A stretch of 64,000 nt of DNA from Methanomassiliicoccus sp. GTDB taxonomy: Archaea > Thermoplasmatota > Thermoplasmata > Methanomassiliicoccales > Methanomassiliicoccaceae. The stretch lies in contig JAAYAX010000005.1 in NCBI GenBank assembly GCA_012719175.1, positions 1 to 64,000 of the forward strand, read 5' to 3'. The position numbers and the translations under genes are program-made. A model generated the notes under the pieces. The model was not told the origin of the DNA, did no database searches, and saw only the letters and a list, made by a program, of their open reading frames with translations. Shown piece after piece: positions 13,226 to 17,450 of this stretch. Every line of letters begins with the position of its first letter. Position 1 is the first letter of the stretch.

Positions 13226-13735
13226 TCATTCGTTGCCCTTTACCCAATCCAAGCTCGTGTCGATCATGGCAAAGATCACGTCCCCGCTCTTGCCCGACAA
13301 ACGCGCCCCGAACGGCAGGTGGTGGACGGGATCGACGAACTGCTCGCTATATAGCGTGCCTTTATCCAGGTCTTCCTCGCACATGTAATGCTCCACCTCC
13401 TTGTCCCCGAAGGGAGTGGTCATGACGGTCTTGCCGACCATCTCCCCGTCATGCAGCACGGACCAGCCGGCCACCACCCCTCCCAGGTCTGAGAGGTCCT
13501 TTCCATCCCAGGGGAAGGTGAGGCGGGCCCTCTTCATGGAGGGGACCTTCTTTGGCAGGACGTCCACCAGGAACTTGTCCTCCTTGACCATCACCACCTT
13601 TATTCCCAGCGCTCCCTCCACCTTATCGTCCCCTACGTTGCCGGTGACAGAGTACACGATATGGTCGTTCTTGGCCAGTAGACCCTCTTTCCGGGACGGC
13701 AGGAGGGCGAGCACGCTGAACGCGTGATCCATCAT
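13226..13735 (-). CDS. Conserved-looking hypothetical protein
   Basis: A 169-residue soluble, strand-rich protein (for example EGALGIKVVMVKEDKFLVDVLP and GDVIFAMIDTSLDWV). No motif I recognise. It is very close to the cyclophilin-like gene upstream (7 nt); GGGGTGATC ahead of its ATG overlaps the end of that gene, so the pair is probably translationally coupled. Confidence 0.6.
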   Translation of the reverse strand: MMDHAFSVLALLPSRKEGLLAKNDHIVYSVTGNVGDDKVEGALGIKVVMVKEDKFLVDVLPKKVPSMKRARLTFPWDGKDLSDLGGVVAGWSVLHDGEMVGKTVMTTPFGDKEVEHYMCEEDLDKGTLYSEQFVDPVHHLPFGARLSGKSGDVIFAMIDTSLDWVKGNE

Positions 13736-14257: not shown

Positions 14258-15250
14258 TCAGTTCTTGCGCTCGAACAGGCGGCGGATCTCCTTGCCCACC
14301 AGCTCGATGTCCTTCTCCGATTCCTCGGCCTCGAGCCTCTTCATGTTCTCCAGGTCGACCGTCCACTCCTTAGTCCACTCCTCGGCGAAGCGCCCGGAGT
14401 TGATATCGTCCAGGATCTTACTCATGGCCTTCTTGGACTCATCGTTGATGACCTTGTCCCTTCGGGTGAGGCCACCGTACTCAGCGGTGTTGGAGACGGA
14501 GTCCCACATGTGCATCATGCCGCCTGCCTGGATCAGGTCAACGATGAGCTTCAGCTCATGGAGGACCTCAAAGTAGGCGATCTCAGGCTTGTAACCCGCT
14601 TTTATTAAGGTCTCGAAGCCGGCCTCTATCAGGGCGGTGACGCCGCCGCACAGCACGGCCTGCTCGCCGAAGAGGTCGGATGTGGCTTCCTCGCGGAAGT
14701 CGGTCTCCAGCACCCCAGCCTTTGTGGACCCGAGGCACTTGGCGAGAGCCAAAGCGGTCATCTTGGCCTTGCCAGAGGCATCCTGTTCCACCGCTATCAG
14801 TGACGGTACCCCGAACCCTTCCAGGAAGGTCTGCCTGACCATCCTTCCGGGGGACTTGGGAGCCACCATGATGACGTCACAGTTCTTGGGAGGGGCGATG
14901 AGCTTGAAAGTGATGGCGAACCCATGGGCGAACTCCAGGGATGCGCCGTCCTTGAGGTTGGGTGCGATCTGCTCCTTGTATACTCGGGGCTGTACCTCGT
15001 CCGGCAGCAATATCATCACGATGTCCGCGCCCTTTACCGCGGAAGGTATGTCCGCGACCTTCAGACCATCGGCCTGGGCCAGGTCCCAGGACTCTCCGCC
15101 CTTACGAGCTCCCACGGTGACGTTCATCCCCGAATCATGGATGCACAATGCCTGAGCTCGGCCCTGGTTCCCGTAGCCGATTACGGCGATCTTCTTTCCG
15201 CTCAATACCTCTAGGTCAGCATCGGAATCGTGGTAGATCTTGGTAGCCAT
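14258..15250 (-). CDS. ilvC: Ketol-acid reductoisomerase
   Basis: A 330-residue class I enzyme that converts acetohydroxy acids to dihydroxy acids in valine, leucine and isoleucine synthesis. The NADPH loop reads IAVIGYGNQGRAQALCIHDSG (starts about residue 20), followed by the knotted C-terminal domain with the metal-binding Glu-rich motifs (DLFGEQAVLCGGVTALIEAG and EVLHELKLIVD). The length fits the short-chain class. Last gene of the ilvB-ilvN-ilvC unit, 18 nt after the small subunit gene. Confidence 0.96.
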   Translation of the reverse strand: MATKIYHDSDADLEVLSGKKIAVIGYGNQGRAQALCIHDSGMNVTVGARKGGESWDLAQADGLKVADIPSAVKGADIVMILLPDEVQPRVYKEQIAPNLKDGASLEFAHGFAITFKLIAPPKNCDVIMVAPKSPGRMVRQTFLEGFGVPSLIAVEQDASGKAKMTALALAKCLGSTKAGVLETDFREEATSDLFGEQAVLCGGVTALIEAGFETLIKAGYKPEIAYFEVLHELKLIVDLIQAGGMMHMWDSVSNTAEYGGLTRRDKVINDESKKAMSKILDDINSGRFAEEWTKEWTVDLENMKRLEAEESEKDIELVGKEIRRLFERKN

Positions 15251-15268: not shown

Positions 15269-15634
15269 CTAATTTTTCCCGCAGTTATCTATGCCCCTGT
15301 ATAAGCAATGTTCGGCAGTCCGTCTCATCTCACCAGCATCCTTGTCCTCGCTGCAGGCGATGATGTAATCGGAGCCCTTGCTGGGTGATGATTCCCAGAA
15401 GCAGAAGTAGTCCTCGTTGAGATACTCCGCGGAATTGACGTCATGAAGAGCCATGAGCGCATGGAGCAGCCGACCGTTCATTCCGCCGGTCTCCGCTTCC
15501 ACTATCATGGTTATCTGTCCCTTGCTGCGGGCCATGAACGCCTTTTCCACGTTTATCTTTCTTCTACCAAGCTCCACCAGGACCCTTTGGAACAGCCCTT
15601 GGGAGTCGACGCCAACTATCTTGATCACTTCCAT
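15269..15634 (-). CDS. ilvN: ACT-domain protein, acetolactate synthase small-subunit-like
   Basis: About 121 residues with an N-terminal ACT fold (EVIKIVGVDSQGLFQRVLVELGRRKI), the usual binding domain for branched-chain amino acid feedback on acetolactate synthase. The C-terminal 50 residues contain three Cys (IIACSEDKD, EHCLYRG, DNCGKN) and are unlike classical IlvN. ATG 15634 is chosen over GTG 15640 because GAGGT lies 8 nt before it. The start lies within the 3' end of ilvB, so the subunits are coupled. The specific IlvN role is inferred from position. Confidence 0.75.
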   Translation of the reverse strand: MEVIKIVGVDSQGLFQRVLVELGRRKINVEKAFMARSKGQITMIVEAETGGMNGRLLHALMALHDVNSAEYLNEDYFCFWESSPSKGSDYIIACSEDKDAGEMRRTAEHCLYRGIDNCGKN

Positions 15635-17295
15635 CTGCACCTACCTCTTATCACTGAATCTGCCTTACCGCCCGGGGGGATCATCGGGAGGACGTCCTCC
15701 TCGGGGTCCATATGAATGTCGATGAGGTACGGGACCCCGGCCTGCAGCCCTGTCCTCAGCGCTTCTTTGAGCTCGGACGGACGCTCCACATGGGCACCAT
15801 CGGCACCATATGCCTGGGCCAGCTTCACGAAGTCAGGATTGTTCTTCAGTTCCGTTCCGCTGTACCTCCTCTCGGCGAACAGCTTCTGCCATTGCTTGAC
15901 CATTCCCAGCCACCCGTTGTTGAACACGCAGACCACCACCGGCAGGTTCTCGGACACCGCTGTGGCGAACTCGTGAGAGACCATCTGGATGCTCCCATCG
16001 CCCGCGATGTCGATGACCGCTCGGTCAGGGAACGCGACCTTGGCCCCCAGGGATGCAGGGAACCCGAAGCCCATGGTCCCGAAGCCACCGGAGGTGATGA
16101 ACTGCCGAGGGTAGCGGGCCTTGAAGAAATGGGCCGCCCACATCTGGTTCTGTCCCACCTCCGTGCACACGATGGCGTCATGAGGAAGGGAGCGGTTGAG
16201 CTCATGAATGGCGAACTGGGGGAGGATGGGGGTCGATTCGATGTTGATGTTGCAGTTGCAGTTGTCCAGCAGCTCCTTGATGCGGAGGGTCCATGCTGTC
16301 TCTCCCTTCGACGTGTTAAGGCCTTTAATTATCAGCTGGAGCGCCTTCTTGGCATCGCCGACCATGCGCACCTGGGTGCGAGCGGACTTGCCAGCTTCGC
16401 CGGGATCGATGTCAACATGAATGATCTTCGTGGATATGGGCAGCTCTGACTGGGCGCCGGAGCTGCGGTCCGAGAACCTGGTTCCGACCGCAAGGATGAC
16501 GTCCGCTTCCAGGAACGCTTTGCGGGCCACCTCTCTGCCGTGCATGCCGATGATACCTAGTGAAAGGGGATGCTCTTCGGGTATGACGCCCTTGGCCATG
16601 ATGGTGGTGGCGACCGGCGCCATGAGCATCTCCGCCAGTCGAACGACCTCCCCGCTGGCGTTGGACCAGATGATGCCTCCGCCCACGAGTAGCAGGGGCC
16701 TCTCCGCGCTCTTCAGGATCTTGAGGGCCTCAGGGAGGTCAGCGAAGTCCTCGAGGGGGGGCGAGTCCGGGAACTCCTTAGTCATCTCCTGGTCAGGGAC
16801 CTCTCCCTTCTGAACGTCCGAGGGCAGGTCGATGTGCACTGGCCCCTTCCGTCCCTCGTTGGCTATGGCCACACCCCTCTTGATGGCCTCGGGAATCTCC
16901 GAGGGAGTGAGGATGCGGAAGTTATGCTTGGTTATGGGCATCATCAGGGAGAAGGAGTCAGCTTCCTGGAAGGCCTGGTTCCCTATGGCGGAGGTGGTGA
17001 CCTGACCGGTGAGAACGAGCATGGGTGATGAGTCCACATAGGCGGTGGCCACTCCGGTGACCAGGTTGGTCGAGCCCGGGCCGGAGGTCGAGGTGCAAAC
17101 CCCGATCTTGCCGGTTGCCCTTGCGTACCCATCAGCCATATGGGCCGCGCATTGTTCATGTCGGACCAGCACGTGTCGTATGTTCGAGGTCAGGATGTCA
17201 TCGTAAAGGGTGAGGGTGGAACCCCCAGGGTACCCGAACATGACTTCGACCCCTTCTTTTTCTAGCAGTGTGAGAACGGCCTTAGATCCTCTCAA
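15625..17295 (-). CDS. ilvB: Acetolactate synthase large subunit
   Basis: A 556-residue thiamine diphosphate enzyme condensing pyruvate with pyruvate or 2-oxobutyrate. Visible are the cofactor-activating Glu region LVRHEQCAAHMADGYARATG, the central FAD/NAD-like domain, and the thiamine diphosphate motif GDGSIQMVSHEFATAVSENL ending in FNNGW. The start is TTG, supported by AAGGTGATC ending 3-4 nt before it. A 120-nt transcribed leader carrying a short Val/Leu/Ile-rich peptide lies upstream. Confidence 0.95.
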   Translation of the reverse strand: MRGSKAVLTLLEKEGVEVMFGYPGGSTLTLYDDILTSNIRHVLVRHEQCAAHMADGYARATGKIGVCTSTSGPGSTNLVTGVATAYVDSSPMLVLTGQVTTSAIGNQAFQEADSFSLMMPITKHNFRILTPSEIPEAIKRGVAIANEGRKGPVHIDLPSDVQKGEVPDQEMTKEFPDSPPLEDFADLPEALKILKSAERPLLLVGGGIIWSNASGEVVRLAEMLMAPVATTIMAKGVIPEEHPLSLGIIGMHGREVARKAFLEADVILAVGTRFSDRSSGAQSELPISTKIIHVDIDPGEAGKSARTQVRMVGDAKKALQLIIKGLNTSKGETAWTLRIKELLDNCNCNINIESTPILPQFAIHELNRSLPHDAIVCTEVGQNQMWAAHFFKARYPRQFITSGGFGTMGFGFPASLGAKVAFPDRAVIDIAGDGSIQMVSHEFATAVSENLPVVVCVFNNGWLGMVKQWQKLFAERRYSGTELKNNPDFVKLAQAYGADGAHVERPSELKEALRTGLQAGVPYLIDIHMDPEEDVLPMIPPGGKADSVIRGRCRWK

Positions 17296-17320
17296 AAGAT
17301 CACCTTTTCATGAAATGTGC

Positions 17321-17347
17321 GAGGACACCCATCAATCTGGATGCCTC
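17321..17347 (-). promoter_or_regulatory. Hairpin between ilv leader peptide and ilvB
   Basis: Minus strand: GAGG-C-ATCC, an 8-nt loop and GGGT-GT-CCTC form a stem that starts in the leader-peptide stop codon and ends 25 nt before ilvB. Segments of it can alternatively pair with codons of the leader peptide (17397-17403 with 17325-17331, 7 bp), so a ribosome on the peptide could switch structures. Confidence 0.45.
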
Positions 17348-17418
17348 TACCTAATCAAAACTACCACTACGCCCAGCAAAGAAGAAACTATTGAAGTGGG
17401 TGTGGTAATGCCTTGCAT
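17347..17418 (-). CDS. Putative ilv operon leader peptide
   Basis: A 23-codon ORF ending in SIVSSLLGVVVVLIR and TAG, placed 51 nt upstream of ilvB on the same strand. Eleven residues are Ile, Val or Leu, and six of the last seven are consecutive branched-chain codons, the hallmark of attenuation leader peptides of bacterial ilv operons. Its ATG lies about 27 nt from the centre of a TATA box (GGTTAAATAC, 17441-17450), so it should be the very 5' end of a leaderless mRNA. Such control is not an established mechanism in archaea; this is inference from sequence. Confidence 0.55.
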   Translation of the reverse strand: MQGITTPTSIVSSLLGVVVVLIR

Positions 17419-17440
17419 TGATTCCCAAATATGAGCAATC

Positions 17441-17450
17441 GTATTTAACC
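17441..17450 (-). promoter_or_regulatory. TATA box of the ilvBNC operon
   Basis: Minus-strand GGTTAAATAC preceded by a purine-rich GGCAAGG that could serve as BRE. Expected transcription start is about 17418-17420, at the ATG of the leader peptide. Confidence 0.5.

Follow-up and report, generated by a model that had tools for sequence, protein, structure and literature searches.

Leader-peptide attenuation is a textbook bacterial mechanism, and in translational attenuators of the erm/cat type a hairpin hides the ribosome-binding site of the controlled gene. Near leuA or ilvB, Rfam holds the motifs leuA-Halobacteria and ilvB-OMG. Compared by name only, these two are likewise candidate cis-regulatory RNAs upstream of leuA or ilvB; neither name occurred in the open-access literature searched, and at the Rfam gathering score no match was obtained in the window (the whole 64-kb stretch of DNA that was analysed) or in seven other loci, two of which are leuA loci of close relatives. 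The erm/cat attenuators share with the present locus a leader ORF and a stalled ribosome that alters a downstream hairpin. The closest described systems are the bacterial ilv/leu attenuators, for example that of Corynebacterium ilvBNC, which, in the accessible portions of two papers (PMC10272879, PMC11857589), have in common with it a short ORF with cognate codons near its stop, located just upstream of ilvB, hairpins between ORF and gene, and stalling as the proposed sensor. For archaea, no leader-peptide attenuator was found in the open-access literature, a scope that leaves most subscription papers and all preprints aside; this agrees with a first-pass annotation of the locus, which had described such control as not established there. 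Among the accessible portions of individual papers, one names ermC and includes archaea in a general statement about upstream-ORF attenuation, with no archaeal example (PMC10219788), another reports that in Methanosarcina mazei 10% of the small ORFs lacking annotation fall within 5′ UTRs and may be uORFs (PMC11456600), and in a third attenuation appears only within two references (PMC12482152).

The elements of the locus are as follows, from promoter to operon.

17442–17448, minus strand: TATA-like box TTAAATA, with its first base 30 nt before the leader ATG, which predicts a leaderless transcript
17347–17418, minus strand: leader ORF of 23 codons, MQGITTPTSIVSSLLGVVVVLIR, with ATG start and TAG stop, read from the sequence; counterparts in all 40 informative loci from families f1, f3, f4 and f6
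17402–17407, minus strand: 5′ arm of hairpin 1:2, UACCAC, pairing with 17362–17367
17353–17370, minus strand: run of six Val, Leu and Ile control codons, GTA GTG GTA GTT TTG ATT, read from the sequence
17362–17367, minus strand: 3′ arm of hairpin 1:2, GUGGUA, within the Val codons
17321–17347, minus strand: hairpin 3:4, GAGGCAUCCA...UGGGUGUCCUC, its stem starting at the final base of the stop codon; counterparts in 40 of 40 loci, with compensatory changes
17313–17316, minus strand: AUUU, the window's counterpart of the AUYG motif that relatives carry 4 nt after hairpin 3:4
17298–17305, minus strand: AGGTGATC, ribosome-binding site of ilvB, read from the sequence and presumably matching the 16S 3′ end
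15625–17295, minus strand: ilvB, acetolactate synthase large subunit, with TTG start at 17295 (TIGR00118, 689 bits, cut-off 538)
15269–15640, minus strand: probable ilvN (small subunit), assigned by position only, with no NCBIfam or Pfam match
14258–15250, minus strand: ilvC, ketol-acid reductoisomerase (TIGR00465 and NF004017, both over their cut-offs)

The 23-codon ORF with six consecutive Val/Leu/Ile codons that the first-pass annotation had reported 51 nt before ilvB is read directly at 17418–17347 of the minus strand; the six codons (17370–17353) are followed by an Arg codon and the stop, and 51 nt separate the stop from the TTG start at 17295. The TATA box reported ahead of its ATG is likewise in place, as TTAAATA at 17448–17442, beginning 30 nt before the start codon. 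Around the operon, a gene for a type II glyceraldehyde-3-phosphate dehydrogenase diverges from the intergenic region of ilvB, and downstream of ilvC, on the minus strand, lie genes for a cyclophilin-like protein (PF04126; 13746–14114) and a 169-aa protein with no Pfam match (13229–13735).

Short ORFs are abundant in the window, with 1128 of 15–40 codons on the two strands, which would favour the view that the leader is a random short ORF with a hydrophobic tail. A TATA-like box at leaderless distance accompanies 2 of the 1128, and at least seven Val, Ile or Leu residues (V/I/L) in the last nine codons occur in the leader ORF only (nested starts 17463 and 17418). We framed a strict rule, comprising an ATG or GTG start, a TATA-like box at leaderless distance, at least five V/I/L in the last nine residues, and a stop 10–110 nt before the gene, which 37 of the 40 ilvB loci of families f1, f3, f4 and f6 pass; the three misses are L012, with an N at the promoter, and L008 and L125, with a shifted or unusual box. 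When ilvB upstream regions were shuffled by mononucleotide, 0.3% (Methanomassiliicoccales) and 0.8% (Archaeoglobi) passed the TATA rule combined with at least five V/I/L. Upstream of hisG and trpE, none of 284 start positions (37 genes) passed the strict rule and nine did once the TATA rule was lifted; no leader was found in 22 leuC loci and no TATA-linked candidate in 19 ilvD loci, four of which carry one upstream ORF without a TATA box. An ilvD (PF00920) match is itself absent from the window's assembly, possibly through an assembly gap, and present in 21 of the 23 genomes searched. The leader ORF is a genuine observation, far above chance; an origin by chance is vanishingly improbable, already contradicted by a leader that four families of the order and another archaeal group retain with gene-specific codons.

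The first-pass annotation had named the lack of a similar Ile/Val/Leu-rich ORF in close relatives as a refutation of its proposal, and the proposal survives this check. In a survey of 61 genomes ilvB was recovered in 57, and the upstream DNA of the returned loci was read together with 20 more stretches. A leader ORF that ends mainly in V, I and L codons precedes ilvB in all 40 informative upstream regions of families f1, f3, f4 and f6, a set of loci related by descent that includes the window and several second ilvB copies. Dropped from it were L031 (contig beginning 11 nt upstream of ilvB), L116, the f2 loci, which are counted apart, and the second tandem copies L022b, which has no candidate, and L024b, which has a V-rich candidate without TATA spacing; family f5 and incomplete ilvB fragments lie outside the survey. 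The leaders are 20–26 codons long, begin with GTG (23) or ATG (17) and end with TAG (24), TGA (15) or TAA (1), and the first base of the TATA-like box falls at –30 to –32 in 36 of the 40. Within the last nine positions all four Val codons are used (GTA 38, GTC 26, GTG 40, GTT 30), Ile is written by three codons and Leu by five; the residue class is thus kept while the bases vary. Taken together, TATA spacing and codon usage predict a leaderless, translated ORF.

Leaders are not uniform across the order. None of eight ilvB loci of family f2, which is probably Methanomethylophilaceae, has a leader by the strict rule, and further f2 loci yielded none that convinces and some weak ORFs under a loose rule. 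Several genomes of the order carry two ilvB copies (L022, L024, L029/L115, L117, L118, L125 and L128), and in four genomes a separate leader precedes the second copy, where both the tail (...SVQVLVV and similar) and the hairpin differ. As a separate observation, loci L226–L230 (family f9, same class) show by eye a conserved TTTATCTAAC[AC]CTGTGGCG followed by T-rich DNA, ~60–100 nt upstream of ilvB; the stretch stands in place of a leader ORF and is possibly another ilvB RNA element.

The hairpin that the first-pass annotation had drawn at 17321–17347 exists and begins inside the stop codon. This hairpin 3:4 is present in 40 of 40 loci, starting at the last base of the stop codon or 2–3 bases beyond it. 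Its base, GAGG/CCUC, is nearly constant, and the pairs beyond vary on both sides of the stem: pair 5 is CG in 24 loci, AU in 15 and GU in 1, pair 6 is AU in 20, CG in 14, GC in 5 and GU in 1, and pair 7 occurs as five types. Loop length and stem sequence vary among loci as well. Against dinucleotide shuffles the mean z is –3.35, with values below –1.5 in 39 of 40; no U-run follows the hairpin in the window or in the 40 loci. Hairpin 1:2, in which the first codons pair with V/I codons, is weaker, its codon-shuffle z averaging –1.5 (for the fold of the ORF, a mean of –2.37 in f1, about –0.6 to –0.8 in f3b, f3c and second copies, and –0.9 in the window). Anchored-column covariation of hairpin 1:2 over 35 loci revealed a core CAC/GUG that hardly varies, and an off-helix signal, the strongest, that tracks families and was not counted. 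Two alignment-based results were set aside: RNAalifold on a 12-sequence alignment gave a poor consensus with misaligned arms, and a 25-sequence alignment misplaced the 3′ arm in some groups. An AUYG motif lies 4 nt after hairpin 3:4 in 28 of the 40 ilvB leaders, and CAUYGC follows the leuA leader stop; pairing of AUYG with the leader start, considered by eye and unscored, was rejected, the AUG/CAU match being trivial from the start codon and failing in groups with GTG starts.

The position of hairpin 3:4 follows the control codons more closely than the stop. Counted from the first base of the last V/I/L codon, the hairpin begins at 8 nt in 35 of 40 loci, at 9 nt in four and at 11 nt in one; counted from the first base of the stop codon, it begins at 2, 5 or 6 nt, in 25, 11 and 4 loci. 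Specifically, where an extra codon (mostly R, S, C, Q or G) precedes the stop, the hairpin overlaps the stop codon, and where there is none it lies beyond. Such spacing is what a ribosome paused at the final branched-chain codon, its front abutting the hairpin, would call for; shared ancestry may account for some of the constancy.

Two mutually exclusive pairings had also been proposed, and both exist in the window: UACCAC (17407–17402) with GUGGUA (17367–17362), and ACACCCA (17403–17397) with UGGGUGU (17331–17325). They exclude each other because they share bases 17402–17403. The second pairing is not conserved: just two members of family f1 have it, the window and its nearest relative, whose IlvB is 98% identical. 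More generally, no conserved competitor of either arm of hairpin 3:4 was found, and the arms pair with the ORF no better than they do with codon-shuffled versions of it; mutually exclusive pairing was rejected as a general switch. The ribosome-binding site of ilvB was then considered by blocking a ribosome footprint at four positions in the 40 loci and at three positions in 17 Archaeoglobi loci, and its pairing shifted consistently in neither set, so that a hidden ribosome-binding site was rejected as a general switch too. The conserved switch is thus neither concealment of the ribosome-binding site nor an antiterminator of the bacterial type.

Leaders also occur in a second archaeal group, which we take from record names to be the class Archaeoglobi. 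Leaderless V/I/L leaders precede ilvB in 18 of 18 usable loci, at 20–40 nt in the 17 measured, and no conserved hairpin was seen between leader and ilvB there; L272 was dropped because its match falls within the gene, and the 17-locus pairing analysis also leaves out L278, whose start the script missed. In a wider search, ilvB was recovered in 113 of 120 genomes, of which the best 30 matches were made into loci, and 20 further upstream stretches were fetched. Further ilvB leader candidates are L035, L037 and L092 (Thermoplasmata or euryarchaeote), L085 (DHVE2), L082 and L070; a further genome search around L085 added one new locus, outside the counts. In 20 other genomes from the phylum of Archaeoglobi, ilvB has no convincing leader, the two weak ORFs found under a loose rule being neither of them leader-like. 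Downstream of the leader stop, L082, L085 and L090/L267 have a hairpin and then a T-run, an arrangement shared with bacterial attenuators. These comparisons bear on the idea that a regulatory protein or ligand binds the hairpin and that the ORF is incidental. Conservation of the GAGG/CCUC base, and of AUYG 4 nt on in 28 of 40 loci, would fit such a site; however, V/I/L are conserved as residues with varied bases, loop length and stem sequence vary, no Rfam family matches, and the Archaeoglobi keep the ORF without a conserved hairpin, which together make it quite improbable.

A related arrangement precedes leuA. The leuA of the same genome (L190; 2-isopropylmalate synthase, NF002085, 662 bits) is preceded by MCIIATKLALILREY, and mostly Leu-rich leaders were found before leuA in 13 loci, with tails in relatives such as VALILREC, PLLLLREL and TLILRLL and LLFLLPLGLILLA-type leaders in three genomes outside the order. 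Leu makes up the majority of V/I/L in the last ten residues of 9 of 13 leuA leaders versus 3 of 40 ilvB leaders, and the pooled counts differ with a Fisher p of 7e-9, a value that ignores relatedness. The own-genome leuA leader is not leaderless, since its TATA box lies 50 nt before the ATG. The leader start can pair with bases after the stop: L190 and L184 form a perfect helix of 9–10 bp, and in L182 and L183 the helix is better than in shuffled sequences (p ≤ 0.04), which holds for none of the remaining nine leaders. L190 and L243, from different groups of Thermoplasmatota, have almost the same sequence after the leuA leader stop, CATTGCTGAAT-CTGGG. Among leuA-family genes of three Archaeoglobi-type genomes, no convincing leader was found, L251 and L239 offering weak candidates. 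The differing residue preference of leaders tied to ilvB and to leuA is also informative about whether the translated peptide could be a small functional protein, such as a membrane peptide, with the hairpin a separate element. A C-terminus that is hydrophobic in all loci would suit a functional peptide, but that preference, together with an N-terminal half that is poorly conserved, a length that varies from 20 to 26 codons, and a fixed spacing to the hairpin that would be left without explanation, renders it very improbable.

We lean towards reading the locus as an attenuator through which the ribosome adjusts expression of ilvB-ilvN-ilvC to the supply of charged Val, Leu and Ile tRNAs. Its sensor, namely the ORF, control codons, promoter spacing, hairpins, geometry and gene specificity, is well supported at the level of sequence; stalling, its direction and the output step are parts that we infer, the last because neither a U-run nor consistent masking of the ribosome-binding site was found. 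Transcription would start at or beside the leader ATG, as the TATA spacing suggests, and a ribosome would load on the 5′ end, read the 23 codons and open hairpin 1:2. With ample Val, Leu and Ile, it would reach the stop and depart, hairpin 3:4 would close, and downstream expression would be low. With Val, Leu or Ile scarce, the ribosome would wait in the V/I/L run; once the last V/I/L codon occupies the A site, the hairpin base would be 8 nt from the first base of that codon, as in 35 of 40 loci, and judging by bacterial ribosomes the front of the ribosome should reach approximately this point. Paused there, the ribosome would make it harder for the GAGG/CCUC base to pair, and expression of ilvB would follow. 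This direction of control is taken from the biosynthetic role of the genes; the opposite direction is conceivable, since a ribosome positioned at the stop codon would occupy the 5′ arm as well. The first-pass annotation had proposed that stalling controls ilvBNC by RNA refolding: the leaderless leader tied to ilvB stands, conserved far beyond close relatives, and the specific refolding switch, whose second pairing is not conserved, is not supported. Since the hairpin keeps its place with respect to the codon run and the other switches are not conserved, we favour a steric model in which the stalled ribosome physically hinders the hairpin; the 8-nt spacing agrees better with this than with a refolding switch.

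For the output, we prefer premature loss of transcription, with termination of a terminator-like or FttA-assisted kind within the short stretch that is not translated, to blocked initiation at ilvB. In the accessible portions of PMC12548453, FttA is given as the likely cause of polarity in archaea, and coupling in Haloferax volcanii is described as weak beyond about 30 nt, which argues mildly against simple coupling across the 48–63 nt that separate leader and ilvB in the order. The same sensor could instead act on ilvB translation, the leader ribosome governing access or hand-over to the ilvB start with either sign and hairpin 3:4 serving as spacer or barrier. The lack of a U-run after the hairpin, the mere 20–40 nt between leader and ilvB in Archaeoglobi, and the possibility, by reading, that arm 4 (CCUC) pairs with purine-rich ribosome-binding sites in some loci all lend this some appeal, but it is weakened by that same 48–63 nt spacing and by the lack of a consistent shift in ribosome-binding-site pairing over 40 loci (four ribosome places) and 17 Archaeoglobi loci, and we consider translational output possible, if doubtful.

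Overall, we think it rather likely that leader-peptide attenuation of branched-chain genes is a widespread archaeal control, found in most of one methanogen order, some other Thermoplasmatota and all sampled Archaeoglobi, with codons matched to the gene (Val/Ile/Leu for ilvB, Leu for leuA) and, in the order, with leaderless mRNAs and, rather than a U-run terminator, a hairpin placed where a ribosome halted at the final branched-chain codon would have its front edge. Conservation in many archaea suggests that archaea, like bacteria, may measure amino acids via ribosome stalling. If so, archaea would sense amino acids with the ribosome on leaderless mRNAs behind a TATA promoter, signalling from a stalled archaeal ribosome to downstream expression would become directly testable, and ready-made test loci would be at hand in culturable groups.

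Set against the known systems, the locus resembles each of them in part. Relative to the erm/cat type, hairpin 3:4 ends before the ribosome-binding site of ilvB and modelled ribosomes had no consistent effect; a site held in the hairpin and freed by stalling was found neither in the 40 loci nor in the 17 Archaeoglobi loci. Of the features of a trp/ilv-type attenuator, no intrinsic terminator was found, the hairpin being present in 40 of 40 loci and the U-run absent from the window, and the exclusive antiterminator pairing is in the window sequence yet unconserved, whereas a translated-looking short ORF with cognate control codons does lie upstream of a gene for the same amino acids. Compared with the bacterial ilv/leu attenuators, which differ in their U-run and antiterminator pairing, the present locus combines an archaeal host, a TATA promoter and a leaderless leader with a first hairpin whose 3′ arm contains the control codons and with a terminal hairpin 8 nt from the last of these codons.
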